Virus record (IMG/VR): IMGVR_UViG_3300037493_004281
Coordinates: 1 to 36,140 of that record
DNA from: a virus
Direction: 5' to 3' (one strand)
Length of the DNA: 36,140 nucleotides
Shown: positions 1-36,140 of the stretch, in pieces
Layout: every line of letters begins with the position of its first letter
Position numbering within the stretch: the first letter of the stretch is position 1
Position numbers and translations under genes: made by a program
Notes under the pieces: model-generated
What the model was told of the DNA's origin: nothing
The model's input: the letters and a program-made list of their open reading frames with translations, nothing else
Databases searched by the model: none

Positions 1-3000
1 AAGGGTAGTCAAATAATGTCACCTGAAAGAATTGCTCAATTAGATAATATTACTGTAAAAGAAGCTTTTGATAATCAACAAAAAGAATTTAAAGAAGTAT
101 TTGATTTTAAAAATCAAGTCTTAAAAGAAAAGACAGGCCTATTAATAGCTTTAACAGGTATTAGCCCAGGTGTGTCAGAAAATGTAACTACTAAAAAAAC
201 AAGTCTTCAAAAATTAGCATCATTACCTTTTACACAAAAAGAAATACTTGGGATATATGGTTCTATTAAACCAGTAACTGAAACTACAGAAAATCTAGAA
301 GCAGGTTGGTCAACTATTGTTATTAATAATCAAACTTTTGTAATTGATAGACCTCTTATAACAGAAGAGCTTACTAATAAAATTGCAGCTGTATTTCTTA
401 ATCCTAATATTCCTAATAAAGAAAAGATTGCTTATGTAGAACAATTTTTAAATAATAATGTAGTAGATAGTGTAAAAAGACATACCATAGCATATAATCC
501 TACTACAGGTATATTAACTTTTAAGTATACAAATGAAACAACTGCAGAAATCAAAGAGACTGGTATAGCAACAGATAATTTTATTCCATTAAATGATTTA
601 TCTAGTATATCCAAAGCTGAATATGATAAAAGATTTGAAAATATAAAAGATATCTTATTTAGAAATGCACATAGTTATAAGGACAAATCAGGTGTTGTAC
701 ATCGTAATAGAACAAGAGTAATATTAAATCAAGCTAATGTTCAATCTATGACATATAGAGATTATGATTTAGTAACTAATGATTTCTTAGATAGCTTAGC
801 TAATTATGCAGATTTCTTAACAAAAATGAATCCTAATATTCAACTTAATTCTGAAACAGATCCTAGTTTTTTTAATGCATACATGTCATTTAAAGTGCCT
901 GATGAAATTACTAAAGAAATTAATACAGCTATAAAAAAGCAAAAGATAAGTACACAAACTTTAAATTTTTTAGAAAAGAAAGCTTTAGCGGTTAAAGCTT
1001 TACAAGAAAAAAAATCTGTTAAAGGAACTATAATTAAAAAAACTGATTATACAAAACATGGTTTTATAACTAAAAACGGTACTGAGTTTTCATTTTTTGC
1101 TAAATATAATAATATTACTCCAGAAGACTATAATGCAGAAGCATACTTAGAGCTTGAACCGGATATTGAAATAAATGATGAATTATTTAAAGATCCTGTA
1201 GCTGTAAAAATTGGAGATAAAATTATAGGCTATTTACAAGCAACTGCTTTTAGTAAAAATGATAAATTATCTATTCAAAAAACTAATAAAGAAGTTGTTG
1301 CTGAAACATTAGAAATAACTCAACCAACAGATGTTGCTCAACCAGATGATTTATCAGAAGATGATTTAGCTGATAGAATGATTTTAGATAGAAAAACTTA
1401 TTTAGATAATAATGTAACTAAAGAACAACTTGATATTGCTGATGCTTGGGTAAAAGAGTCACCATTATTTTCTGATAAAAATGGACCTAGTGTTCAACAT
1501 GTAGCTAACATTGTAAATTCTGATGTATATGCACAATTTGTTGTAGCTGGAAAAACTTTATCAGATGTTAAAGTATTAGTTAATGCAGCTACTGGAGGTA
1601 ATATGGCTGATGTATATCATGAAGCATGGCATACATTTTCACAATTATATTTAACTAAAAAACAAAAAGTTAAGCTTTATAATAATGTAAGAAATAGTAA
1701 ACCTGAGTATAAAAATTTAAGTTTTTTAGAACTTGAGGAGATAATTGCTGAAGAGTTTAGAGACTATGCATTAACCGGAGCTACTGATAAAAAAGCTCCC
1801 GTTAAAGGTTCAATATTTAAAAGTATACTTGACTTTATTAAAAAACTTTTAGGTATTACTAATATAGATGGTAAAGATGTATTATTTCAAAAATTATATT
1901 TTGCCGGTAAGAATCCTAAGTTATTAAATAACTATACTCCTCTTATTGATAATGTAATGTTTGATATATTAAATAGAGGTATACAACAAGTTAATAATAA
2001 AAAAGAAGATTGTCTTAATAGACAAGATAGTAATGCATTAAGTAATTCAATAGATTCTATTATTTCAGAAGTAATTGATGATTTAAATGCAAGAGAATCT
2101 AAAAAAAGAGTATCAGCTGGAGGTGTTGAAACTAAAAGTGGGACTATCCAGTTTTTATTAAATCCTGATAATAAAGATTTAGTATACAGTATAGTAAAAA
2201 CTAGACTAGAAAAAAAGTTAACTTATTGGAAAGATAAATTAGGCCCCATTACGTCTAAATCTTTTAATGAACTTGATACAGTAGATAGTTTAAAGAAAAA
2301 TGCTATAGCAATTATAAAAAGTAAAGATGGTGTTAATAAATATGTTTTCTTAAATTCTCAAGTAGATGTATTTGATAATTTAAATTTATCAATTAAAGAT
2401 GGTGATAGATTAAAAGGTCAAACTTTTGAAGGTGTTGATATTATAGCTGATTATTATGATCATAAATCATTATTAAATGAAAAAGGTGAACCACAAGAAA
2501 TAATTGTAGTAGATAAAATACAAGATGCTGAAATTCAGTATGATAATTATATTAAATCTGGATTAGTCAGTGAAACTTTTACAGGTATTAACCAACCTAA
2601 TATTAAAATTTTAAGTTCAGAAGAACAATCTATATTAAATAAAATTAGAATTTTACAAATAGGTATATCTAATTGGGGAGATATTAGTAATGGTTTAGTT
2701 AGATATCATATTGAAAATAGTAATTATGATATTGTACGTCAACAATATGTTGAGATAGAAGATGATACTGATATAGATACTAGTAATAGAGGAGGTATAG
2801 GTAAAGTTAATCCTGAAGATGTAACTCTAGAACAAGGAGCTAGTAAAGAAACTATTTATATATTAAAAAGTTTATTTAAAATTAATAAACAAGGTCAACA
2901 TACAGAAGATATATTAGGTTTTAAAGAACGTGTAGAATTTAAAAAAACTTGGTTTGATATTGTCAATACTGTAGGGGGTATAAAAGATGCTCAAGAGCAA

Positions 3001-6000
3001 TATGATGCTTTAATAGGAGCTATTAGTATATACCCTGAATTTGCTCAATTAGTTAATTCAAAAATACCTAATCCTGAATTTGCTAATACTTTATATGAAA
3101 CTAGAATAAATTCTGCTTTTGTAAGAGATCTTGGTAGAAAAACTAAGTATGACTATATTCAGAATACTATGATGGAAGATTCTCATGTTGAAGTCGTTGT
3201 GGCATCAATAGGAGCTCCTCAATTAATTTCAAAATATGAAGATTTATTTAAAACAGATATTTCAAATCCATATGTAAATAGAAGTTATGATAATATAAAT
3301 AAGTTAGATTTAATAAAAATTTTAACAGCTTTTAAATCTTCTAATAAATATATTTTAGATGAAAGTAAAGCTTTAGATTTTGCAAGAGCTATAGGTTTAT
3401 ATATTGATGATATAGATGTTATTCAAGAAAAGTTAACTGAATCTCATGGTGCAATTACTTATTTTGGTTTAGGTCATATATATCAAATCATAAGACAAAT
3501 TTCTGAAAAAGAAAGAGAAGGTAATAATTCAAAAGAAGTTTTAAATATTATAGAGGACTTTAAATTAAATCCTATAGGAACTTTAAAAAAGGGTATTCCA
3601 GAAAATACTATTTCAACTAAAGCATTTGGAGAGAGAACTCAATTATTAAGAATAGTAGATTTACAAATAAAATATGGTTCTGAAATTACAAGTCTTAGTA
3701 CATTAAATGCTAAAGGTGATACTGTAAATCCTTTTATTAATGATCATAGTATTAGTATGATGGTTTATGGTATTAATAAAGCCGAAAAATTATCTGATTT
3801 ATGGTTGAAACCTGAGATACAATATATGTCTTACTTAGATCCAGAAATAAATACATTTACTAACAGATCTGCAATTTTAAAGACTATTTTTAATTTTACA
3901 TCAAGTATTCAAGAAAAAAGACCGGACCAAGATTTACAAGTATTTATTAGTTCTGGTTCACAAACTATAGATGAAGATGGTGTAAATACAACAAATTTAG
4001 ATATATTTTCTAAAAACCTTCAAGAAGTAAATGGTCTTCTTAAAGGAGGTATACAAGAATTTATGCGACATGCATCTAAGTCTCAAGCTTTTGGTATAAA
4101 GATAAAAGGTCAGATTTTTGATGGACAAGGTGGTAAAAAGAAAGATCCTAAACTATGGGTAGATATAGATAAATTTGCTATGGGTAGTGAAGGTGCTGAT
4201 TATGCGTTTAATCAACATATCATTCAGTATATTGCTGCTGAAGTAGATAGAATTAATAAATTTAATTCTAATATTGATTTATTTAAAACATATAAAGGAT
4301 ATAATAGAGTTGTTGGTAAAACTAAAGAAGGAAAAGATATTTATGCAGGACAATCTTTTAATGGATTTGATAATGTATTAAGAGAAAAAACTAAAATAGA
4401 TATTTTAGATAATGTAAAGTCTGGACAAGATTTAGTAGCTTATTTAAAAACAAATCCTGAGTTAAAAGCTAAAATAGTAAAAGATGTTAGTGATTATTTT
4501 GAAGAACAGACAGAACAAAATCATAACTTTTTAAAAAAATCACCTTTTATAAGTCCTGATTTAATCAGTAATTTGAATGTATTTAACTTATCACCTGCAG
4601 AAGCTGTAAAAGTTTTAATGAAAGCTTATACTTATAATGCATGGATTCATCATTATGAAACAGCTGCTTTATTTTATGGAGATCTTGCTCAATATGATGA
4701 TGTTCATAAAAGAAATACAGGTGCCTCATCTGTAGGTGAAGGTTATAGAACAGATGCTGCTATGTTAAAGTTTATTAATGATCCTAATGGACCTGTTAGA
4801 AAAAATACTTATGCAGCAAGTTTCCCTATAGATAAAGGTTATGATAATTTTGAATATGATGGGACTCTTAATACAGCTATAGTACAAGATGTAATAAGAA
4901 CTTCTGAGTATTTAGATGATTATATTAGACCGGCTTTACATAAATATTATACTGAACAATTTAAAAATGTAAATAAAGAAATATTAACGTATAACTTATC
5001 AAAAGAAGGTCTTAAAGATCTTATAAAACTTCATGGTAAAAACTTTACTTTAGAACAAGTAAGAAAAGCAATGGTGGAAGACAGGGTTGCTATAGAATCC
5101 GCTCCTTATGAAAAAATGGAGGAAAGTGATGGTCAAGGTTTTATTACCTTTGATGCTTATAGAATGCTCAAGTTATCTGAAAATAATTGGACAGATCCAC
5201 AAGAAGCTTTATTTAGAAAAATAGTTTCAGGTAAAGAGATAGAATCAGATGAGATTAGTGAAGCATTTCCTGTTTACAAAGTACAGAATTTTGGTCATTT
5301 AGCTAATACTGAATTACCGGTTAATGCTATGCATAAATTTTCCTTGATGCCTTTAATACCAGGAGTTTTCAAAAAAGGTTCTGATTTGGATTCTCTTCAT
5401 AATCAAATGATGAAAGAACAGATACATTATATGACATTTGGATCAGGTTCTAAAGTAGGTAGTATACTTGCACCTAATGGTAAACATGATGAAATATATG
5501 AAGAAGGAAGTAATAACAAAACAATTAAAAAAGATATAAAGTTTACTAAAAATGTAATTTATTTAGAATATCTAAAGAATGTTACAACTATGTCTAGTGT
5601 CTTTAAGGGTAAAGTGATTTATTCTTCTCAAGCAAGAGGTATTGGTATAGATGGTTTATTTGAGCAAGGAAAAATTATTAATCCTGATAATCAACAAGCT
5701 TATGATAATTATTTAAATGGAGTTGATGATTTAAGAAATATTATTGAAATAGGTTTACTTTTTGAAATAGGTTATGAAAAAATAAAAAATAAAGATGGTA
5801 GTTATTCTTATAAAGGAGACTTAAAAAAGTTTATGAATTTAGTTCAAAAGGAATTAGTAAGAAATGACGTGCCTGACCATTTAATAAAATTTATTTCTGT
5901 TACTCCTGACAACACACTTAAATTTGATTTATCTTTTCATCCTAATGCTGATTCTATTGAAAAACTTATTGTATCATTAATTGAAAAAAGAGTAGTAAAA

Positions 6001-9000
6001 CAAAAAGTTAAAGGTGAAGGATTTATACAAGTTTCAAGTGCTGTTACTAATGGCATTTGGGATAAAGAATTAATAGATAGAGGAGGTTCAGTAAAAGAAG
6101 TACAAAAATTTATTGGTAGTAATAATTTACCGTTCTATCATCCAGGTGAAGATGGTAAAACAGTAGCTATGAAAGTAGCTATTGCTATGCAAGGAGATTT
6201 TAAAAATTTATTCAATCTTAAATATAATGGTAAATTAATAGGAGATATAGATACTTTAAATATAGCAATCAAAGATCCAGCTTGGGTTGAAATTCATAGA
6301 TCAGAAATAACTTTAAATTCAGTGAGAATTCCTGTTGATGCAATTAGTTCAATGGAATTTGCTGAAGTATATCATTTTTTAAGTCCTGCAGCGGGCCCTA
6401 TAATTATATTACCTTCTGAAATAGTAGCTAAGTCAGGAACTGACTTTGATGGAGATAAGATGACTTCTTCTCTTCCTAACTTAACTAAGCAAGGTGAATT
6501 TATTACAACTGATAAAACAAATGAAGAGATTTATGAAAAAGCTTTATTGTTAAAAGCACAAGGTGAAAATCAAAAAGGATTATCTTTAATTAAACAACAA
6601 CAAAAAGCCATAGAGAATAGATTAATTTCTGCATCTAGAGGTTTACTTGAATTAGAAGATAACTATGTTCATTTAGTACGTCCTAATTCAATGTATTTAT
6701 TAAAAACTATTGCTGATGATATTAGACCATTTGTTACTGATTATGATAATATAAAAAATATGCATGGTGAATCTGACCGTTTAGATAAAAATGGTAATCC
6801 TGCATTAAGTCCAACAAGAAGGTTTGAAGCTAGATTTAATTTAGAAAAACATGAAGTAAATTTAATTTCAAAAAAAGCATTAGGTTCAACTGCTATTGAC
6901 AATAAATTAAGTCCTATATTAAATTCAATACCTGCAAAACTTCCAAAAAGTTATAAATTACTTACTAAATGGGATGATGATTTAAAAAAATATATACCAC
7001 AATCAAATGATAGAGATCTTCCTACAAGAGTATTTTTACCACATAACATTATGATAGTTAATGGAGTGAAACGGATTTCTTTATCTAATGTAAATAGTGC
7101 AGATAATATGAGCACTATATCTAATTTATATTCTCATTTAATGAATGGTTATTTAGATGTTGAAAAAGATGCATGGGTTGCTGCTATTCAAGGAAATCAA
7201 GAAATATCACCAATGATATCTCATTTATTTGAAATAGGTGTTCCTAAAGAATATGTAACAATGTTTTTATTACAACCTTTAATTAGAAAATATGCAGAAG
7301 AACAACGCTTAATTGACAGTGCTTATGCAAAATATACTGGTAAAGGAATAGAAGAAGCTCATTTTAAAAAAAATAAAGCAGCAAGTAATGTAATTGAAAG
7401 TGTAATACCACAATTAATTTCTAATGCTATTAATAAAAGTTCTAAAGACATTACGGTAACTTATTATAAAGATGATATTAATGAATATGGTGAAGAAGTT
7501 TCTACTTTAACAGTGTTAGATACTGATAAAGTAACTCTAAAAGAAATGATTAATAATGATGAAATTTTTGAATTAGACATACTAAAAATTACTAATGGGC
7601 CTGTGCCTGTATATGTTAAACCGGATATAACTAATAAAAAATACTATGATACTGTAAGTCATTATACATCTATTCCAGGTGTTTTAAATAAAGAAGGTTA
7701 TTTTGATTTAAATGATTTAACTACAAATATTAAAGCTCCTGATCTAGGTTCATTAGATGTATCAGTAGCTGCTTTTTTACATTTTTTAGAATTAGAAAAA
7801 CAAGTAAAAGGTACACAAGATATTAAAAGAGCAGCAAATATAGATACTAAAACGTCTAAAACAATACAGGAGTTAGTTAAAGTAAATGTAACTAGAAAAA
7901 AATTAGCTGAAAATTCTAAATTGGATTCAGAAACTTTAGATCAACTTTTTAATAAAAGTATACTTAGATCTTTTGCAGATAATCAAATTATAATTGACTT
8001 AATAACTCCTTTATTTTCAATAAGGAATCATCCTTTTGTTACTGATTTTATAACTGATGTTTTAGATAAAAGGTCTGGAGAAGTAGCTAAAAGTTTTGGT
8101 TCAGATAAAGATAGTCAAGTAAAGTTTATTACTAGCTTTAAAAATGCTATAAGTAATTATATTTATCAAAATCATGCTTCAGATATTAGAAAATCTGATG
8201 GTACACGCCTTACATTTGATGAAATGACTACAGATAATATTATCTCATTCACAAATGAATTATTTAATGTATTAAATACATATCCTTTATTAAAAGAAAA
8301 GTATTTAATATTGAATCAAATTACACCTACTTCAATTAAAAAAAATAAAAAAACTAATGTTAAACAAAAGTCTATAACATTAAATGATAGTAGAGATGTT
8401 AAAGGTCAACTTGCTGAAGTTTATTATCAAAATTTAAAAGAACTAGGTAATCCTAGTGTGAGAAAAGTAGATGATGACGCTGAAAATACATACATAAGTA
8501 CTTTATTTAAAATGTTACCTCAAGTATCTATTTATTTAAATGGACAGGGTTACAGTAAATATGGTTTTAGTGCAGCTTTACCATTTGATGAGTATATGTT
8601 AGCAATGCAAAAAGTATCAAATGATTTTATTGCTAATGAGATGAATAATGATACATTTGAATTTATTTTTAATAGACTTCTTCAAGATACACATGTATTT
8701 AAAAATTACAACCGTAAAGATGTAGTTCAATTATCACCTGTTATTGTAAATCCAGAAGATAACTTACCTGCTCAATATAGTTTATTTGATACAATTAATC
8801 CAGATGGTAGCATAACTCATAATTTATCTTTTGCAAAACTTACTGCTAGTAAATTTGATAAGAAAAATATTTTTAAAGTAACTCCTCAAGATGGTGTAGC
8901 TGATTTTAAAGCTACTGCTAAAGCCTCAATTGCCACTCAATACATTGGTTTTGGTGAAGATATAGTAGGAAAAGATGGTAAAAGAAGCAGTACTCAAATA

Positions 9001-12000
9001 TATAGAGAACAGGCTGGACAATATGCTAATACAGGAGCTTATTCTTCAACTGATGTTATTTTTGTATCAATACCGGGACGTAGAGGAAATGCTACAATTG
9101 CTAAAAGAGAACAAGATAAAACTATAGAAGAAGCAATTAAAGCATTAGAAGCTGGTGCTACACTTCTTACTGATAATAAAGCTTATACATTTGATCCTGC
9201 AAAAACATATAATACAGGAGAAAGAAATTTATATACAACACTTGAGAGTTTAGGTTATTATTATGATGAAATAATGGTCAATGCTCAATCAATTGGTACA
9301 TGGGTTAAAGTAGTACCCTTACTTAAAGAAAGTGCAGATGAAATTTATAGTAAACTAGGAAATACTTCAGCAACTCCTAATGTTAAAATAGATGATATAG
9401 CTGGTAGAAAACGTTCTACTAAATTAGGTATTGTGGCCTATAGAACTCAAGGTAATGATTTTTTAAAAGCCTTTAATGAAGATAGAACTATAGGAAATCC
9501 TTGGAATGAAAGAGGTTATAGTTTATATAAAACAGGTAGTATAAAAGAAGCTGTTATAGAATTTACAAAATGGTTGACTGGGGAAGCTCATACAGATAAA
9601 TTAGTAGAATATAGACAAGCTATAATTAATAATTTAGGTAATCTTAAAGGTAAACAAATAGTATATTATAATGAGTTAAATGAACCTTCTCATGCAACAG
9701 CTTTAGATTATCTAATTAATAAATATAATTGGAATACACCTACTATTGAAACATCTACTCAATCATCTACTAGTATTAAAATAGAATCTACAGATAGAAT
9801 CATATGGGGACATCCTGGATTAGGTAAAACCTTTTTAAGAAAATCTCAAGATAATATTATTGATTTTGACTCAGACTATAAATCAAAAATAAATAAAAAA
9901 CATAATCTTGAAGAAGGGTATAAAGCTAGAAATGCTTGGAGAAAAACTCATGAAGCTCAATGGGATCAAACAGTAAGAGAACTATGGCAAGAAGCTAAGA
10001 AAGATGCAATTAAAACACGTAAAAGATTATTAGCTTCTGATATGATTTTACTAAGAGAATTTGCTAATGATTTTGATAAGGTTATAACTATGTCAGATGA
10101 TACTTTTATTGAAAGATCTAAACAAAGAGATGATTATAAAGAAGGAGATACTGAAAGTTGGAAAAATAAAATTAATGATGAAATATCTAAAATCCCAAGT
10201 GATAAAGTAATTACTACTGATAAGTATCTTTCAGATTTATTATCTACTCAATCATCTACTAGTGTTGATACAAAATGGTATGATAAATTCAGGGAATATG
10301 TAAATAGAGGATATTACCAACAATTTATTAAAGATTTACAAAAAACTAAAACTGCAGCTGAAATAGATAGTATAAATGCAGAAATTAGAAATGTTTATAT
10401 TCAAGAACTACAACAAAAATATCCTCAATTAGGAAATATAAGTATTGCTTCTGATGGTTCTACGGTAAATGTTGATAATATAAATATTTTAAAACAATTA
10501 GAGCCTACTTTAACTAGACTTATGGTAGGTAATCATGGAGTTTATTTAGAATTTACTTCCCCCGTTGATACAGGAACTTTTGTAAAGAAAAGAATGCAGT
10601 ATAATGAGTATATTAAAAATGGTATAAAACTTTATGATCAATTTCAAACTGTTAATTATGCTGATTATAAAGTAGGAAAATGGTATGCTGATATAAATGA
10701 TTATAAACTTACTACTCAATCATCTACTAGTGTTGGAATAGAATTCCAAGAAGAACCAACAAAAGGTTATATAGAAAGAACTAAAAAGAATGCATCAGCA
10801 GATGCAACAATTGATTTTGGTTTAAATCAAGAAGGAGAATCTTGGACTAAAAAAGCAGTAGATAATAACAAAAAGAAATATATTGGAATAAATACTAATA
10901 ATCTTACAATTACACCTGAAATAGTTAATAAAATAGTTAATGCTTTAAATAGTGTTAATGCTAAAACATTAAATATAGCTGGTATGGGTATTTATAATAT
11001 GAAGCAATATACTCAAGAGCAAGTTGATGATTTTACTTATGATTTATTAAACCAAGTACTAAATTCACCTGATCTTAAAACTAAAATAGAAAGTATCAGA
11101 AGTGGTGGTCAAACAGGATTTGATGAAGCTGGTGCAAAAGCAAGTATGAAATTAGGATTACCAACAATAGTACTTGCACCAAATGGTTGGACATATAGAG
11201 ATGTAAACAGTAAAGATATTTCAAATAAAGAAAAATTTATTGCAAGATTTAAATCTACTCAATCATCTACTAATCTACCTATAAATACTAATGAAAATAA
11301 ATCTTTTAAAAATTCATTATTTAGAGGTCAAGAAGATGCACCAATTATTAATGAAAATGGTGATCTTGTTATACTGGCAACTTATGACCCATTATTTAAA
11401 TCAACAGGATCATCTTTTGCAGAAAGTTATAATATGGCTCAGAATTATGGTAATAGGTATTCTAAAAATCCTTATGTGATTGAAATTAATAAAGACTATG
11501 CTGATAAAATTAGTCCATTAATTGAAGGTGGTACAAAAGCATATGGAAATCGTGTTGTAGGTGATCAAGGTGAAGAAAGATTTATTTCAGAAAATGATAT
11601 AATAATTCCAAAAGGAATGTTTACAGTTCATAGAGTAGATAGAACTTTTAATACAAATACTTATTCAGCAAAACAATTAATTGAAGGATATAATAAACAA
11701 TTTATAGAAGGTGACATAGCTGAATACAACCGTTATGGTGAAGCAAGTCAAGGATATGCTACAGAAGGTTCAGATTATTATGAAGCTATAGAAAATGAAT
11801 TATTAAGAAGAGGTATTAGTAAAAATGATTTTGTATTCTTACAAGAAGCCAATTCTATTTATTCATTAAAAGAAATTGTAGCTGGTATTTTTAATATACA
11901 AATTGAACCTGGAGAATTAGAACCAGATGTAAGTCAAGATTTGATTGATCAGTATTTATCTAAACAGAAAGAACTTTTAAGTAAACTAGAAAATCCAGAA

Positions 12001-12933
12001 AATCAACCTACAGGTTTATCTTCATTTATTGGTAATTCAGGTGGAGCTAAAGTAGCAATACATGAAGTAGCTCACAGAGGTATGTTAAGAATGGCTAAAG
12101 ATTTAGGTGGCACAAAAGAATTAGGTGCTGCACTATTTGCTGCAGAAAAACAATTAATGGAAAAATTACCTGAGCTATTAAAAAGAACAGGACATAAAAA
12201 TTTAGAAAGTTTAATGCTAGATTATGGATTTACAACATCTAGTGAAGAAGGTAAAATTAAATTATTAATGGAATTAGCAGCTAGATGGGCAGAAACTTTA
12301 ACAGATAAAGTGCAACCATCTTGGTGGAAAACATTTATTGAAAGTATACAAAAATGGATAGCTAATTTTACAGGAAGAACTTTAAATGAAAAAGAAGTAA
12401 ATGAGTTAGTAGGTGGTTTTGTTAAATATGGTACAAAAAATAATAGTAATACTCAAAGTACTACACAAACAGGTACAGGAAGTTTAAATATTGAATCTGT
12501 AGTACCAGAAAGTTTACTGAGTGTTGAAGAATTATCTAAGTTTAAAACTGAAGTAGATACTTTAAATGGTGCATTACCTAAAAGATTTTTTACAGAACCT
12601 ATTGAAAAAGGTTTAGAAAAAAATATGTGGATATTAAATATTAATAATTTATATGATTTAGTAGACCCAAGTAATAATGAAATCTATTTACAAAATGTAA
12701 ATCTTTTAACAGGTATTCCTGAAAAAATTGAATCTAAAGTAACAGTAGTTAATGAATCTGCACGTAAAAAAGCAATATATGATTTATTAACAGCAGTAAA
12801 CACATTAAAAATAGATGAAGTACTTTCAGATAAAGGATATGATTATAAAGAAATAGTGACTAATTTAGAGAACGCAAGTAGTCAAGAAGAATTAAATAAA
12901 ATTATTGCTAAATTATCAAATTTATTATGTTAA
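1..12933 (+). CDS. Giant crAss-like virion RNA polymerase with multidomain polyvalent C-terminus (5' partial)
   Basis: Residues are numbered from the first Met (base 16), but the frame is open back to base 1, so the N-terminus is probably cut by the window edge. Visible domains: zincin-like HEAWH at 535-539; RNA polymerase core with SGTDFDGDKM at 2140-2149, where Asp2143, 2145 and 2147 match the metal-binding DxDxD loop of single-chain YonO/crAss-type polymerases, preceded by VRIP...SME near 2103-2114; an unnamed GFG...STQ...GRRGN domain at about 2970-3095; DUF4326-like at about 3133-3240 (GNPW, LKGK, SHA); P-loop GHPGLGKT at 3265-3272; a VGNHG...YADYK domain at 3417-3565; SLOG/YpsA-like SGGQTGFDEAG at about 3696-3706; possible ADP-ribosyltransferase fold at about 3766-3875; second zincin HEVAH at 4016-4020. 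In crAss-like phages this polymerase is packaged and ejected to transcribe early genes. The C-terminal modules resemble polyvalent effector proteins; their roles are inferred. Confidence 0.9.
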   Translation, partial: KGSQIMSPERIAQLDNITVKEAFDNQQKEFKEVFDFKNQVLKEKTGLLIALTGISPGVSENVTTKKTSLQKLASLPFTQKEILGIYGSIKPVTETTENLEAGWSTIVINNQTFVIDRPLITEELTNKIAAVFLNPNIPNKEKIAYVEQFLNNNVVDSVKRHTIAYNPTTGILTFKYTNETTAEIKETGIATDNFIPLNDLSSISKAEYDKRFENIKDILFRNAHSYKDKSGVVHRNRTRVILNQANVQSMTYRDYDLVTNDFLDSLANYADFLTKMNPNIQLNSETDPSFFNAYMSFKVPDEITKEINTAIKKQKISTQTLNFLEKKALAVKALQEKKSVKGTIIKKTDYTKHGFITKNGTEFSFFAKYNNITPEDYNAEAYLELEPDIEINDELFKDPVAVKIGDKIIGYLQATAFSKNDKLSIQKTNKEVVAETLEITQPTDVAQPDDLSEDDLADRMILDRKTYLDNNVTKEQLDIADAWVKESPLFSDKNGPSVQHVANIVNSDVYAQFVVAGKTLSDVKVLVNAATGGNMADVYHEAWHTFSQLYLTKKQKVKLYNNVRNSKPEYKNLSFLELEEIIAEEFRDYALTGATDKKAPVKGSIFKSILDFIKKLLGITNIDGKDVLFQKLYFAGKNPKLLNNYTPLIDNVMFDILNRGIQQVNNKKEDCLNRQDSNALSNSIDSIISEVIDDLNARESKKRVSAGGVETKSGTIQFLLNPDNKDLVYSIVKTRLEKKLTYWKDKLGPITSKSFNELDTVDSLKKNAIAIIKSKDGVNKYVFLNSQVDVFDNLNLSIKDGDRLKGQTFEGVDIIADYYDHKSLLNEKGEPQEIIVVDKIQDAEIQYDNYIKSGLVSETFTGINQPNIKILSSEEQSILNKIRILQIGISNWGDISNGLVRYHIENSNYDIVRQQYVEIEDDTDIDTSNRGGIGKVNPEDVTLEQGASKETIYILKSLFKINKQGQHTEDILGFKERVEFKKTWFDIVNTVGGIKDAQEQYDALIGAISIYPEFAQLVNSKIPNPEFANTLYETRINSAFVRDLGRKTKYDYIQNTMMEDSHVEVVVASIGAPQLISKYEDLFKTDISNPYVNRSYDNINKLDLIKILTAFKSSNKYILDESKALDFARAIGLYIDDIDVIQEKLTESHGAITYFGLGHIYQIIRQISEKEREGNNSKEVLNIIEDFKLNPIGTLKKGIPENTISTKAFGERTQLLRIVDLQIKYGSEITSLSTLNAKGDTVNPFINDHSISMMVYGINKAEKLSDLWLKPEIQYMSYLDPEINTFTNRSAILKTIFNFTSSIQEKRPDQDLQVFISSGSQTIDEDGVNTTNLDIFSKNLQEVNGLLKGGIQEFMRHASKSQAFGIKIKGQIFDGQGGKKKDPKLWVDIDKFAMGSEGADYAFNQHIIQYIAAEVDRINKFNSNIDLFKTYKGYNRVVGKTKEGKDIYAGQSFNGFDNVLREKTKIDILDNVKSGQDLVAYLKTNPELKAKIVKDVSDYFEEQTEQNHNFLKKSPFISPDLISNLNVFNLSPAEAVKVLMKAYTYNAWIHHYETAALFYGDLAQYDDVHKRNTGASSVGEGYRTDAAMLKFINDPNGPVRKNTYAASFPIDKGYDNFEYDGTLNTAIVQDVIRTSEYLDDYIRPALHKYYTEQFKNVNKEILTYNLSKEGLKDLIKLHGKNFTLEQVRKAMVEDRVAIESAPYEKMEESDGQGFITFDAYRMLKLSENNWTDPQEALFRKIVSGKEIESDEISEAFPVYKVQNFGHLANTELPVNAMHKFSLMPLIPGVFKKGSDLDSLHNQMMKEQIHYMTFGSGSKVGSILAPNGKHDEIYEEGSNNKTIKKDIKFTKNVIYLEYLKNVTTMSSVFKGKVIYSSQARGIGIDGLFEQGKIINPDNQQAYDNYLNGVDDLRNIIEIGLLFEIGYEKIKNKDGSYSYKGDLKKFMNLVQKELVRNDVPDHLIKFISVTPDNTLKFDLSFHPNADSIEKLIVSLIEKRVVKQKVKGEGFIQVSSAVTNGIWDKELIDRGGSVKEVQKFIGSNNLPFYHPGEDGKTVAMKVAIAMQGDFKNLFNLKYNGKLIGDIDTLNIAIKDPAWVEIHRSEITLNSVRIPVDAISSMEFAEVYHFLSPAAGPIIILPSEIVAKSGTDFDGDKMTSSLPNLTKQGEFITTDKTNEEIYEKALLLKAQGENQKGLSLIKQQQKAIENRLISASRGLLELEDNYVHLVRPNSMYLLKTIADDIRPFVTDYDNIKNMHGESDRLDKNGNPALSPTRRFEARFNLEKHEVNLISKKALGSTAIDNKLSPILNSIPAKLPKSYKLLTKWDDDLKKYIPQSNDRDLPTRVFLPHNIMIVNGVKRISLSNVNSADNMSTISNLYSHLMNGYLDVEKDAWVAAIQGNQEISPMISHLFEIGVPKEYVTMFLLQPLIRKYAEEQRLIDSAYAKYTGKGIEEAHFKKNKAASNVIESVIPQLISNAINKSSKDITVTYYKDDINEYGEEVSTLTVLDTDKVTLKEMINNDEIFELDILKITNGPVPVYVKPDITNKKYYDTVSHYTSIPGVLNKEGYFDLNDLTTNIKAPDLGSLDVSVAAFLHFLELEKQVKGTQDIKRAANIDTKTSKTIQELVKVNVTRKKLAENSKLDSETLDQLFNKSILRSFADNQIIIDLITPLFSIRNHPFVTDFITDVLDKRSGEVAKSFGSDKDSQVKFITSFKNAISNYIYQNHASDIRKSDGTRLTFDEMTTDNIISFTNELFNVLNTYPLLKEKYLILNQITPTSIKKNKKTNVKQKSITLNDSRDVKGQLAEVYYQNLKELGNPSVRKVDDDAENTYISTLFKMLPQVSIYLNGQGYSKYGFSAALPFDEYMLAMQKVSNDFIANEMNNDTFEFIFNRLLQDTHVFKNYNRKDVVQLSPVIVNPEDNLPAQYSLFDTINPDGSITHNLSFAKLTASKFDKKNIFKVTPQDGVADFKATAKASIATQYIGFGEDIVGKDGKRSSTQIYREQAGQYANTGAYSSTDVIFVSIPGRRGNATIAKREQDKTIEEAIKALEAGATLLTDNKAYTFDPAKTYNTGERNLYTTLESLGYYYDEIMVNAQSIGTWVKVVPLLKESADEIYSKLGNTSATPNVKIDDIAGRKRSTKLGIVAYRTQGNDFLKAFNEDRTIGNPWNERGYSLYKTGSIKEAVIEFTKWLTGEAHTDKLVEYRQAIINNLGNLKGKQIVYYNELNEPSHATALDYLINKYNWNTPTIETSTQSSTSIKIESTDRIIWGHPGLGKTFLRKSQDNIIDFDSDYKSKINKKHNLEEGYKARNAWRKTHEAQWDQTVRELWQEAKKDAIKTRKRLLASDMILLREFANDFDKVITMSDDTFIERSKQRDDYKEGDTESWKNKINDEISKIPSDKVITTDKYLSDLLSTQSSTSVDTKWYDKFREYVNRGYYQQFIKDLQKTKTAAEIDSINAEIRNVYIQELQQKYPQLGNISIASDGSTVNVDNINILKQLEPTLTRLMVGNHGVYLEFTSPVDTGTFVKKRMQYNEYIKNGIKLYDQFQTVNYADYKVGKWYADINDYKLTTQSSTSVGIEFQEEPTKGYIERTKKNASADATIDFGLNQEGESWTKKAVDNNKKKYIGINTNNLTITPEIVNKIVNALNSVNAKTLNIAGMGIYNMKQYTQEQVDDFTYDLLNQVLNSPDLKTKIESIRSGGQTGFDEAGAKASMKLGLPTIVLAPNGWTYRDVNSKDISNKEKFIARFKSTQSSTNLPINTNENKSFKNSLFRGQEDAPIINENGDLVILATYDPLFKSTGSSFAESYNMAQNYGNRYSKNPYVIEINKDYADKISPLIEGGTKAYGNRVVGDQGEERFISENDIIIPKGMFTVHRVDRTFNTNTYSAKQLIEGYNKQFIEGDIAEYNRYGEASQGYATEGSDYYEAIENELLRRGISKNDFVFLQEANSIYSLKEIVAGIFNIQIEPGELEPDVSQDLIDQYLSKQKELLSKLENPENQPTGLSSFIGNSGGAKVAIHEVAHRGMLRMAKDLGGTKELGAALFAAEKQLMEKLPELLKRTGHKNLESLMLDYGFTTSSEEGKIKLLMELAARWAETLTDKVQPSWWKTFIESIQKWIANFTGRTLNEKEVNELVGGFVKYGTKNNSNTQSTTQTGTGSLNIESVVPESLLSVEELSKFKTEVDTLNGALPKRFFTEPIEKGLEKNMWILNINNLYDLVDPSNNEIYLQNVNLLTGIPEKIESKVTVVNESARKKAIYDLLTAVNTLKIDEVLSDKGYDYKEIVTNLENASSQEELNKIIAKLSNLLC
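9754..11272 (+). repeat. Four in-frame copies of a TQSST-linker DNA repeat
   Basis: A 19-21 bp sequence with core actcaatcatctacta occurs at 9754-9774, 10243-10263, 10714-10731 and 11254-11272, always in the same reading frame, encoding (S/T)TQSST(S/N). The copies lie at residues 3247-3253, 3410-3416, 3567-3572 and 3747-3753, exactly between the P-loop, VGNHG, SLOG-like and ART-like modules. A degenerate fifth version (NTQSTTQTGTG) lies near 12448-12480, after the second zincin domain. The copies act as flexible domain linkers at protein level and look like punctuation between exchangeable modules at DNA level. Confidence 0.9.
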
Positions 12934-33295: not shown

Positions 33296-33676
33296 TTAAT
33301 CATTTATTGTCTGATACCTAAAACATATTTCCGGATAAACTATAATAAGATAATCTATCTTATCTACAACGGCCATTATAACATTACAAGGTCTTTCTTG
33401 TTCATCCAATGCTTCCCATATTACTTCATCATCTTCTTCTGATATTATATCATAAGTAATATAATAAGAATCTGCTTTATCCTTAACTTTAATTAGATTA
33501 TTTTTAATCTTAATAGCAATATTGCAGTTTGTTGGTTCTTCCCATACCCAATTATCTTTTGATATTGACCATGTACCAATTTGTGCTGTATATGCATGCA
33601 TGTAAAATTGAGCACTGCATACTATACTAGATACTGTACATACTATAGCAAGTATTAAATTTTTAATTATTTTCAT
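33296..33676 (-). CDS. Secreted protein with Bacteroidota-type signal peptide, 126 aa
   Basis: The best start is the ATG at 33676, which places a signal peptide directly at the N-terminus (MKIIKNLILAIVCTVSSIVCSAQ); an in-frame ATG further up would bury it. Cleavage after SA, before Q, gives the SA-Q junction frequent in Bacteroidota secreted proteins. The mature part is beta-rich and acidic, with few cysteines and no recognised domain. It overlaps the HNH endonuclease gene by 14 bases. A phage protein sent to the periplasm could alter the envelope or block superinfection; this is inference. Confidence 0.7.
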   Translation of the reverse strand: MKIIKNLILAIVCTVSSIVCSAQFYMHAYTAQIGTWSISKDNWVWEEPTNCNIAIKIKNNLIKVKDKADSYYITYDIISEEDDEVIWEALDEQERPCNVIMAVVDKIDYLIIVYPEICFRYQTIND

Positions 33677-34058
33677 CATTATCTTTTTTAAGTTCTCTAG
33701 CTTCATTAGCATTACGTTGCATTAACTCTCCTCTACTAATAGCTTCTAAGTTACTTGGGTGGTCATTTCTTTTATTACCATCTATATGATATATAACATG
33801 ACCTGCAGGAATTGGGCCATAAGCTTCTTTATAAATCATTCTTGGTTTTCTAACTCTTTCATTAGTTCCTGTCCATACATGAGTACAATCTTTACTCATA
33901 ACTTGTTCACCACCATTCCATGAAGGATGATTTTCACCAGTATGATCCTCACCTGATTTAAATTCAGAATCTGGAGATAAGTGTATACCTTTTTTGTTTT
34001 TGTTCCAAGGATTTAATCCTCTAAGAAATTGTCCTAAACTGTTTCTTTCTTTAGACAT
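33663..34058 (-). CDS. HNH endonuclease (HNH_3 type)
   Basis: A 131-aa protein. The C-terminal nuclease core is GPIPAGHVIYHIDGNKRNDHP (81-101), with the HNH-type His91, Asp93 and Asn95, then N98 and N103 in SNLEAISR. The N-terminal half (SLGQFLRGLNPWNKNKKG ... SGEDHTGENHPSWNGG) is rich in Gly, Trp and Asn, like the short DNA-binding repeats that flank homing HNH enzymes. Probably a homing endonuclease inserted in the accessory region. Its start overlaps the 66-aa gene by 8 bases, and its end overlaps the secreted protein gene. Confidence 0.9.
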   Translation of the reverse strand: MSKERNSLGQFLRGLNPWNKNKKGIHLSPDSEFKSGEDHTGENHPSWNGGEQVMSKDCTHVWTGTNERVRKPRMIYKEAYGPIPAGHVIYHIDGNKRNDHPSNLEAISRGELMQRNANEARELKKDNDENN

Positions 34059-34251
34059 TTTTTATAAGTTTATTAGTTAATATTATACTTCCTATTGGCA
34101 CATCAAATTTAGTAGCTTGTTCTTGAGATAAAATCAATGTTCCTATAATATCTCCACCTTTTGCTAAAGCTTCTAATGCAGCTTTATCCATATCATCTTC
34201 ATGAGATAATATTACTTTTAATTCTCCGTTTTTTCTAATTTCTCCTTTCAT
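34051..34251 (-). CDS. Small hypothetical protein, 66 aa
   Basis: MKGEIRKNGELKVILSHEDDMDKAALEALAKGGDI... is a compact alpha/beta sequence with no signal peptide or membrane segment. The leader before its ATG (TAAAATAAATAGTTATG) is a close variant of the repeated leader of this region. It overlaps the HNH gene by 8 bases. No known function. Confidence 0.7.
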   Translation of the reverse strand: MKGEIRKNGELKVILSHEDDMDKAALEALAKGGDIIGTLILSQEQATKFDVPIGSIILTNKLIKNV

Positions 34252-34257
34252 AACTAT

Positions 34258-34344
34258 TTATTTTAATTTTACTATAGGTACACAATCTTCTGGACCAGTA
34301 CAACTACCATCACATACACAGATATATACATCTCTTTTATTCAT
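34258..34344 (-). CDS. Cys-rich mini-protein, 28 aa
   Basis: An open frame MNKRDVYICVCDGSCTGPED followed by CVPIVKLK, with four cysteines at 9, 11, 15 and 21 that could bind a metal or pair as disulfides. It is preceded by the repeated leader AAAAAGAAATAGTTATG, which is the main reason to believe it is translated. Its stop falls 6 bases before the start of the 66-aa gene. At 28 codons the evidence is limited. Confidence 0.5.
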   Translation of the reverse strand: MNKRDVYICVCDGSCTGPEDCVPIVKLK

Positions 34345-34359
34345 AACTATTTCTTTTTA

Positions 34360-34494
34360 TTAATCAATTCCACAAATCTTTTCTACTCCATCAAATACCT
34401 CATTTAATCCCTTAGCGTCCCATTTAATAATCATAATTGGAGATAATAATAAACTAATTATAATCATTAATACTACAAATACTACATATTTCAT
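34360..34494 (-). CDS. Small single-pass membrane protein, 44 aa
   Basis: MKYVVFVVLMIIISLLLSPI and then MIIKWDAKGLNEVFDG...CGID. It has one strong N-terminal hydrophobic segment (residues 3-23) and a short polar tail, so it is either an anchored peptide or an uncleaved signal sequence. The identical repeated leader (AAAAAGAAATAGTTATG) precedes the ATG. It lies between the lipoprotein gene and the Cys-rich mini-gene in one direction of reading, with short spacers. The function is unknown. Confidence 0.6.
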   Translation of the reverse strand: MKYVVFVVLMIIISLLLSPIMIIKWDAKGLNEVFDGVEKICGID

Positions 34495-34515
34495 AACTAT
34501 TTCTTTTTAATTTTA

Positions 34516-34749
34516 TTACCAACTTGTGGTATTAGTAATACAATAGTTAGTTCCTACATAAGCACTCATCCAATCATCAGGAGTCAATACCCATGTTTTA
34601 ATGTTTCCACTACAGTCATTTTTAATATCAACTGAATAATCAGCAGCATTATCTGACATAATTGCACCACAATTACATGGTGTTACTTCTTCTTTCTTAC
34701 AAGACATTGCTAATAAAGCAACTGCCATAATCATCATTACTTTTTTCAT
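34516..34749 (-). CDS. Surface lipoprotein with Bacteroidota export-type signal, 77 aa
   Basis: The start at 34749 gives MKKVMMIMAVALLAMSCKKEE: a lipoprotein signal peptide with the acylated Cys at 17, followed at once by KKEE. A Lys plus acidic pair just after the Cys is the lipoprotein export signal that sends Bacteroidota lipoproteins to the cell surface. The mature part is Cys- and Asn-rich (CNCGAIMS ... NDCSGN ... NYCITNTTSW), suggesting a small disulfide-bonded domain. It begins one base after the stop of the lectin-like gene. Phage lipoproteins often block receptors against superinfection; that role here is inferred. Confidence 0.75.
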   Translation of the reverse strand: MKKVMMIMAVALLAMSCKKEEVTPCNCGAIMSDNAADYSVDIKNDCSGNIKTWVLTPDDWMSAYVGTNYCITNTTSW

Positions 34750-34750
34750 C

Positions 34751-35149
34751 TTATTTCTTTTTAATTGTTTTAACAGCGCGAACATAGTATGCGTTGAACT
34801 TATGGTAGTAGTCCTGGGTACCAAGGTAGAAATCCTGGGACCACGCGTTGGAGTTACCGTTCTCCGTAGAACTCCAATAGTAGGTATAAGCAAAACCGCC
34901 AACCACATCTTTATTTTCATATATTAACAGTAACTCTACCTTAGTAGGTAATCTCCAACCTTTACCTAATGAAGCACAAGCTTTCTTTGCCTCTTCCCAA
35001 GTCATTTTTCCTAACTCTGTAGGATGTACTAAAAAGCCAAGTGTTCCACATATAGCAACAGGTTCTTTTTTTTCTTCTACTTTCATTAAATCAGCTTTTA
35101 ATAAAGCTAACTCATCTTCCAGTACTTTAATTCTTTCTAATTCTTTCAT
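34751..35149 (-). CDS. DUF1566/Lcl-type C-type-lectin-like protein with variable-region-like 3' end
   Basis: A 132-aa protein: an N-terminal coiled coil (residues 1-28, heptad-like Leu/Glu/Lys), then a DUF1566-type fold. Diagnostic pieces are MTWEEAKKACASLGKGWRLP (49-68), ELLLIYEN, YYWSSTE, AWSQDF and YYVRAVK. DUF1566 proteins include known targets of diversity-generating retroelements. The 3' part of the gene (34775-34908) is far GC-richer than the surroundings and dense in AAC and TAC codons, as in a variable region. No reverse transcriptase or template repeat is visible in the window. The repeated leader precedes the ATG, and the lipoprotein gene follows one base later. Confidence 0.85.
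   Translation of the reverse strand: MKELERIKVLEDELALLKADLMKVEEKKEPVAICGTLGFLVHPTELGKMTWEEAKKACASLGKGWRLPTKVELLLIYENKDVVGGFAYTYYWSSTENGNSNAWSQDFYLGTQDYYHKFNAYYVRAVKTIKKK
34775..34908 (-). other. Putative DGR variable region, or compositionally foreign segment, in the lectin-like gene
   Basis: By hand count, 31 of 60 bases in 34801-34860 are G or C, whereas flanking DNA is roughly 30 percent. The codons run GTT GGC GGT ... AAC GGT AAC TCC AAC GCG ... TTC AAC GCA TAC TAT GTT CGC GCT GTT, with clusters of Asn, Tyr, Ser and Asp at surface-loop positions of the fold. The GC-rich end CGC GCT GTT could be the initiation site of mutagenic homing. A partner template is not in view. Confidence 0.5.
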
Positions 35150-35151
35150 AA

Positions 35152-35451
35152 CTATTTCTTTTTAAATTGTTCAAACCATTCTGGTATATCAGCTAATACA
35201 AAATCAGAATACTCAATTAAAGTTGCTTCTATTATTTGTTTAACTTCTTCCTCACTATACATCCTTTCTTGTTGCCATTTAGCACCTTCAATAAAAGCAT
35301 CTTCATTGTAAGGTTGTTTAACCCAATATCTTTCAGCCGCTTCTTCTAATGTTTCTTTTTCATCAGGATATTTTTCATCCCAACACAGCTCACAAATCCC
35401 ACTTAGGGCTTCTTTATAAGCTCTTTTGCATTCACATATTTCTTTTTCCAT
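35152..35451 (-). CDS. Small phage accessory protein with CxC/CxxC motif, 99 aa
   Basis: The start at 35451 is chosen because the regional leader (AAATAAATAGTATG) precedes it; an in-frame ATG further up would overlap the 44-aa gene. The N-terminal part CEC...CELC (Cys 6, 8, 20, 23) may bind zinc. The following LEEAAERYW ... DAFIEGAKWQQERMYSEEEV is a module met in many small Bacteroidota phage and prophage proteins, of unknown function. It ends EWFEQFKKK, just before the lectin-like gene; its stop is inside that gene's leader. Confidence 0.75.
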   Translation of the reverse strand: MEKEICECKRAYKEALSGICELCWDEKYPDEKETLEEAAERYWVKQPYNEDAFIEGAKWQQERMYSEEEVKQIIEATLIEYSDFVLADIPEWFEQFKKK

Positions 35452-35452
35452 A

Positions 35453-35587
35453 CTATTTATTTTTCCATTTTTTCCATATCTCAAAGTCCTTGAGTTTTTC
35501 AAGGTCTTTCATTATTTCTATCTGAATTTTTTTTGCTATAGCCCACATGATAAACATGCCTGTAAATAATCCTAATGCAAATTCCAT
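35453..35587 (-). CDS. Small membrane protein, 44 aa
   Basis: MEFALGLFTGMFIMWAIAKK is one hydrophobic N-terminal helix, followed by a charged helical tail (IQIEIMKDLEKLKDFEIWKK). It is likely an inner-membrane protein with a cytoplasmic coil. Its stop TAG lies one base before the start codon of the 99-aa gene, and a leader variant (AAGTAGTATG) precedes its ATG, which supports translation. The function is unknown; small phage membrane proteins of this form range from holin-like to exclusion factors. Confidence 0.6.
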   Translation of the reverse strand: MEFALGLFTGMFIMWAIAKKIQIEIMKDLEKLKDFEIWKKWKNK

Positions 35588-35588
35588 A

Positions 35589-35834
35589 CTACTTAATTTT
35601 ATCTAAGGGATAACTATTTAATATTGAATCTTTCAGAAATGTTGGGTCATCAGATACATGAGTTTCATCATATTCATATCTTTCACTAGCTTCTTTCAAT
35701 GCTTCTTCTACATGAAGTTTAGCAAATTCAATCATTGCAGTCTCTATACTACCTAAACAAATTGAATCAGTGTCTAGGTGTAAATGATAATAATCTGTTT
35801 CAATTAGTTCTTTTGCTGTTGATATTTTTTCCAT
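35589..35834 (-). CDS. Small phage accessory protein, 81 aa
   Basis: MEKISTAKELIETDYY ... ETAMIEFAKLHVEEALKEASE: the segment AMIEFAKLHVEEALKEAS (about 33-50) is a helical module found in many short proteins of Bacteroidota phages and prophages, with no known function. The C-terminal part (DPTFLKDSILNSYPLDKIK) resembles the conserved end of the same family. It ends one base before the 44-aa membrane protein gene. Confidence 0.75.
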   Translation of the reverse strand: MEKISTAKELIETDYYHLHLDTDSICLGSIETAMIEFAKLHVEEALKEASERYEYDETHVSDDPTFLKDSILNSYPLDKIK

Positions 35835-35846
35835 ACTACTTACGTT

Positions 35847-36026
35847 TTAATCAGTTTTGTTTTCATCTTGTGAAATTTTATTTAGTTCTTTGTTAATACC
35901 TGATGCTGTTATAACTGCAACAATAATATTTGATATCCATACAGGAAAAGGATTATGATATAACCATATACCAAATCCTATAGAAATTGCTAAGTATATT
36001 AATTTCTTAATTAGTTTTGTTCTCAT
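35847..36026 (-). CDS. Small two-helix membrane protein, 59 aa
   Basis: A frame beginning MRTKLIKKLIYLAISIGFGI with hydrophobic stretches at about 9-23 and 29-44 and a polar, charged tail ending SQDENKTD. The basic N-terminus and acidic C-terminus suggest a two-pass inner-membrane protein with both ends inside. The size and shape are compatible with a small holin, but equally with other phage membrane peptides. A leader variant (AGAATAAGATG) precedes the ATG. Confidence 0.6.
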   Translation of the reverse strand: MRTKLIKKLIYLAISIGFGIWLYHNPFPVWISNIIVAVITASGINKELNKISQDENKTD

Positions 36027-36038
36027 CTTATTCTGATT

Positions 36039-36140
36039 TTATCCACATTGATATTGTTCTCCATTTTGTGCAATAGCATCTAATACTCTAAATAAAGGAA
36101 CCAATACAGTACCATTGGTATAGACTTCTTCTTTATCTTT
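36039..36140 (-). CDS. C-terminal end of a hypothetical protein, cut by the window edge
   Basis: Only the last 33 codons are visible: KDKEEVYTNGTVLVPLFRVL and then DAIAQNGEQYQCG before the TAA at 36041-36039. The frame is open to the last base of the window. It ends 12 bases before the 59-aa gene start, in the same direction. Too little is present to name it. Confidence 0.5.
   Translation of the reverse strand, partial: KDKEEVYTNGTVLVPLFRVLDAIAQNGEQYQCG

Follow-up and report, generated by a model that had tools for sequence, protein, structure and literature searches.

A lectin gene of a crAss-like phage fragment with a variable region that fits bacterial DGR template repeats

Diversity-generating retroelements (DGRs) acting in cis are common in phages (PMC7290462, PMC12135933). 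In Bordetella phage BPP-1, hankyphage (PMC12135933) and crAssphage LMMB (PMC7290462), a variable region (VR) occupies the 3' end of a gene encoding a C-type-lectin-fold protein and differs from an AAC-rich template repeat (TR) specifically at adenines, as in the locus described here; however, these phages keep reverse transcriptase (RT), TR and VR together, whereas we found neither RT nor TR alongside the viral VR. DGR action in trans has been described inside a single bacterial genome (PMC10907252; for remote targets, see PMC4891356). In Thiohalocapsa PB-PSB1 (PMC10907252) and Treponema denticola (PMC4891356), a target devoid of its own RT and TR matches a distant TR at non-A sites, which again resembles our case, but there target and DGR share one genome, whereas here the target is viral and the DGR bacterial. 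Cellular DGRs of aquatic Bacteroidetes (PMC8144416) are the kind of system in which we found templates, Avd-like genes and RTs fitting the phage VRs. The global DGR survey considered imperfect repeats at most 20 kb away from an RT (PMC8144416), so that RT-less phage targets are invisible to it. In the literature covered, mostly open-access papers and no bioRxiv preprints, no description of a host DGR acting on the target gene of a phage was found. While the DGR itself is known, the novelty lies in the proposed division of labor between virus and host in its action.

The DNA analyzed, hereafter the window, is a 36,140-base IMG/VR fragment that extends about 1 kb past the lectin gene of interest. 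A giant ORF of 4310 aa, open at its 5' end, spans positions 1–12933 on the plus strand. Tblastn with a 1,500-aa piece of it (positions 4501–9000) returned nine records, all nine from uncultured cr-series phages, with one match annotated as a putative RNA polymerase; the ORF further contains the DFDGD motif of crAss-like virion RNA polymerases. A giant RNA-polymerase-type ORF with matches to cr-series phages only points to Crassvirales, and, judged by these matches, the window is a fragment of a crAss-like phage. Its minus strand encodes a DNA polymerase, a primase, a DnaB-like helicase and a protein of the uracil-DNA glycosylase superfamily; an HNH endonuclease gene (33663–34058, minus strand) lies among small genes near the lectin gene. 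No tRNA that could serve as a clue to the host was found in the window, and no RNA element matching Rfam in 34000–36140 around the lectin locus.

The lectin gene (34751–35149, minus strand) is located at the far end of the minus strand, among small genes and with no recognized tail genes around. Its 132-aa product, which includes an N-terminal helix, carries the Lcl_C domain (PF07603; E = 6.9e-13, above the family cut-off), confirming the DUF1566-type assignment of a preliminary description of this DNA. The AlphaFold2 model (mean pLDDT 86) was found by Foldseek to be closest to the solved Lcl C-terminal domain (8q4e; E = 5.7e-7), with C-type lectins next. The C-type-lectin fold is the usual fold of DGR targets, and here it is likewise combined with a VR at the 3' end of the gene. 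Just downstream, two bases from the lectin stop codon, is a gene for a 77-aa lipoprotein-like protein (34516–34749, minus strand; MKKVMMIMAVALLAMSCKK) with a lipobox-like LAMSC, in keeping with the surface-lipoprotein neighbor noticed before. The pair of genes (34516–35180) recurs with 87% nucleotide identity over 669 bp in a phage contig (G001/L001, 337–1000) whose DNA polymerase is of a different, pol I-like type, suggesting that lectin and lipoprotein gene move together between phages. A cultured phage relative was not found: tblastn of the lectin gave matches of at most 38% identity, and the TR remained unmatched among phage records. As to function, the preliminary description had envisaged a surface-exposed or secreted binder instead of a tail fiber. 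The non-tail role is plausible. In the window, and also in the phage records G070 and G073, the VR protein is small and separate; that the lectin acts as a surface or decoy binder is a guess.

The compositional peculiarities of the 3' end held up on recalculation. The GC content of 34775–34908 amounts to 0.478, compared with a mean of 0.279 (s.d. 0.041) for all 134-nt windows of the fragment, of which 0.02% reach this value, the top ones all representing this very stretch; its richest 60 nt contain 33 G+C (31 of 60 in the preliminary description). Likewise, the AAC/TAC density is real: four AAC and five TAC are present among the 44 VR codons, and none of either among the preceding 81.

A pattern of shared bases, run over 2.9 million viral contigs, retrieved template repeats as well as variable repeats of DGRs; a scan for AAC-rich templates of the same shape in one genome per species (84,980 bacterial and archaeal species) yielded 48 template loci, and it is the TRs of Flavobacteriales that fit the window VR best. 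Relative to the TR of a marine Flavobacteriales genome (L220), 24 of 52 adenines but only 3 of 83 other positions are changed over 135 nt (p = 2e-9, a slightly flattering value since L220 was selected from several dozen templates for its fit); the runners-up L197 (23/51 versus 3/84) and L203 (24/53 versus 3/82) agree. Such concentration of differences at template adenines is expected of a DGR target, and the 135-nt match at non-A positions delimits the VR, homologous to chromosomal TRs of Flavobacteriales, to 34773–34907 on the minus strand, coinciding with the GC peak. From these alignments we consider the 3' end of the lectin gene to be a true DGR variable region. The exact template is absent among the sampled TRs, the closest one showing 2 non-A mismatches in the 62 non-A positions of the VR core. 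Two relatives of the window lectin (L001 and L002; 78% and 75% amino acid identity) agree closely with it in the gene body; towards the 3' end they diverge from it, and do so at AAC-type codons. A-specific variation among relatives, proposed earlier as a check, was thus encountered in these two genes and in the TR comparison, and again in the tandem and paralogous copies discussed below (among them L236b/L237a).

VRs belonging to the same two template classes occur in 17 other phage records, contractile-tailed phages among them. For the second class (L002, L226, L230, L231, L233), the fitting TR comes from a Chitinophagaceae MAG (L192) and leaves 0–2 non-A mismatches in 65 positions; a template of this type had been deduced by eye from the phage VRs before the genome scan turned up L192. 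The VR of L027/G054 follows the Chitinophagaceae template only as far as an extra codon, and that of L008/G050 fits every sampled template poorly. The latter record (27 kb) has two tandem lectin paralogues (L008 1430–2354) differing at AAC-type positions; it contains no RT, and its template was not found among those sampled.

The preliminary description was right about the target gene and its VR, but had assumed that one genome would hold the RT and the template as well. RVT_1 was not detected in the 36-kb window (the rest of this phage genome being unsampled), in 45 DNA-polymerase relatives or in the 17 VR-bearing phage records. A profile built from eight DGR RTs matched none of 29 phage records (control, E = 2.5e-169), while a contrast set from the first pattern scan, with many TR hits, had an RT in 10 of 16 records. 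No TR was found in the window or the VR-bearing records, a mismatch-free template-like match occurring only in the control, and no Avd candidate was seen by eye among the window ORFs, Avd-like ORFs appearing only at bacterial TR loci. The 36-kb window thus shows none of the RT, TR and Avd gene that make up a complete cis DGR, and given that RT and TR are lacking in the sampled DNA we place the gene among DGR targets and do not count it as a complete DGR of the phage. IMG/VR scans with template-compatible patterns returned VRs only (10 + 7 contigs); a phage-encoded DGR with a fitting template was thereby sought for both VR types and found for neither.

An RT and a TR could nonetheless reside in the unsequenced part of the crAss-like genome and act in cis: the window is a 36-kb fragment ending about 1 kb beyond the gene, most of the VR-bearing records are fragments as well, and other crAss-like phages have their own DGR (PMC7290462, PMC11054128, PMC12386605). 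We regard this as quite improbable, as RT and TR were found neither in G004 (92 kb, the nearest DNA-polymerase relative) and G009 (74 kb) nor in relatives of 107–121 kb, as a matching template turned up in no viral contig although the scans caught VRs, and as the template behind the VR can differ between gene bodies that are 93% alike. The 296-kb record G066 is probably complete in view of its near-identical ends (174 bp, 99.4%); it has no RT, and its VR deviates from the template at 14 of 28 adenines and 0 of 44 other positions (ungapped first 72 nt). This VR lies within a 694-aa ORF between the terminase and portal genes, for which reason the protein is probably structural. No RT was found in G013 either (121 kb, exact 127-bp terminal repeat). 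In this probably complete relative, a GC-rich, Fib_succ-type lectin-like domain was observed (L285, G013:54000–60000; GC 0.50 versus 0.38–0.40 around), possibly a candidate for a second orphan VR class. Absence of RT and template from the genome had been named as grounds for rejecting the DGR interpretation; they are indeed absent from the fragment, yet the VR is a true one, so this yardstick misleads, with the templates sitting in Bacteroidota genomes.

At several of these bacterial loci, on contigs up to 199 kb long, a lectin-type target with its own VR is followed by an Avd-like ORF (named by eye), the TR and an RT with RYVDD and IGNLTSQ motifs. An exact-template pattern search in two host orders matched only the centre genomes, which suggests that the template type is rare. 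The TRs of L220, L197, L203, L193 and L189 are near-identical in nucleotide sequence across different Flavobacteriales groups, and their RTs diverge more (about 81–82% amino acid identity); the DGR cassette may be mobile, or the TR may be strongly constrained. Matching TR and RT loci for the window VR thus occur in genomes of Bacteroidota, which are candidate hosts of the phage. Template and RT might alternatively be supplied by a prophage or another co-infecting element, and phage DGRs with related templates do exist (L009/G051 and others). We consider this hardly credible: TRs encoded by phages give a far poorer fit, with 20 non-A mismatches in 111 nt for L009 compared with 5 for L220, and the fitting TRs adjoin ordinary bacterial genes (dnaN-, mnmE- and ribD-like ORFs, named by eye).

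Traces of VR rewriting are visible on the phage side. Lectin genes with VRs are arranged in tandem in G070 (five), G071 (three) and G073 (two). In G070 (88 kb, RT-less) the five small genes are spaced about 344 nt apart (L236, 5312–6778), with a different VR in each. Pooling the ten copies, 201 of 457 template adenines were changed versus 14 of 623 other bases. Copy b of L236 (G070) and copy a of L237 (G071) share every base in the flanks of the VR (194 nt upstream, 42 nt downstream), but differ at 24 positions in the 120-nt VR region, all 24 at template adenines (p = 4e-11). As far as these contigs tell, rewriting between phage paralogues was confined to the VR. In the contractile-tailed phage G073 (79 kb; L239, 8570 and 8909), one VR fits the Flavobacteriales template (0/62 non-A mismatches) and its neighbor the Chitinophagaceae template (2/65); in G071, copies a and c follow L220 and copy b the L203 allele. 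Up to the edge of the VR, the gene bodies of L001 and L002 are 93% alike; beyond it, the L002 VR follows the Chitinophagaceae template and that of L001 another one outside our sample. A single cis template could not easily generate such switching in G073, G071 and L001/L002. Contig chimerism is an unlikely cause, as the pattern recurs in many separate assemblies. The contig of G004 stops inside the lectin-gene VR (L282, 6176–6213), which may fit mixed alleles, with hypervariable sites breaking assemblies, although repeats can break assemblies, too. Rewriting is not visible in every lineage, since identical VRs recur in records with a common locus (G009/G011 and G063/G066).

We favor the idea, at a probability of roughly 0.74, that the phage lectins are diversified in trans by the DGR of the host, the phage itself having none. 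A host DGR, composed of an Avd-like protein, a TR RNA and an A-mutagenic RT, would usually serve secreted lectin-type proteins of the host. During infection it would produce mutagenized cDNA from the host TR, which would home into the corresponding VR in the phage lectin gene and give rise to phage progeny with randomized binding sites. We infer that homing takes place on phage DNA inside a DGR-bearing cell, that bacteria of this kind are the hosts of the phages, and that what the lectin binds is variable. The main rival is recombinational capture, in which already diversified VR segments of host targets enter the phage by homologous recombination, without any homing on phage DNA. A-only differences would be expected here as well, and in G070 the sequence downstream of the VR is similar to its counterpart in a host target gene, so host genes probably once were a source. 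Yet the tandem copies all differ and their VR borders are sharp; moreover, in the window VR and L234 the 5' stretch (ATGTGGTTGGCGG in the window) matches the TRs L220 and L197, but not the host VRs examined, few as these were, which speaks for copying from the template rather than for recombination with the VR of a host. Capture as the explanation appears unlikely to us, and the simplest reading is mutagenic homing with a host TR as the source and phage DNA as the target.

Going one step further, we lean towards the view that unrelated phages of aquatic Bacteroidota convergently evolved RT-less lectins mutated by host DGRs. Besides generating diversity, each tandem VR would then preserve the template of a cell through which the phage lineage had passed, and so a record of former hosts. 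If diversification by the host DGR holds true, a phage lacking its own DGR could have a binding protein hypermutated in a targeted manner, by offering a VR to the machinery of the host, which would explain why RT-first surveys miss such targets. Matching of VRs and templates could then suggest hosts for uncultured phages, and the homing reaction would become testable on an incoming genome. It would also raise the question of why bacteria retain a mutator that can be exploited by their own viruses.
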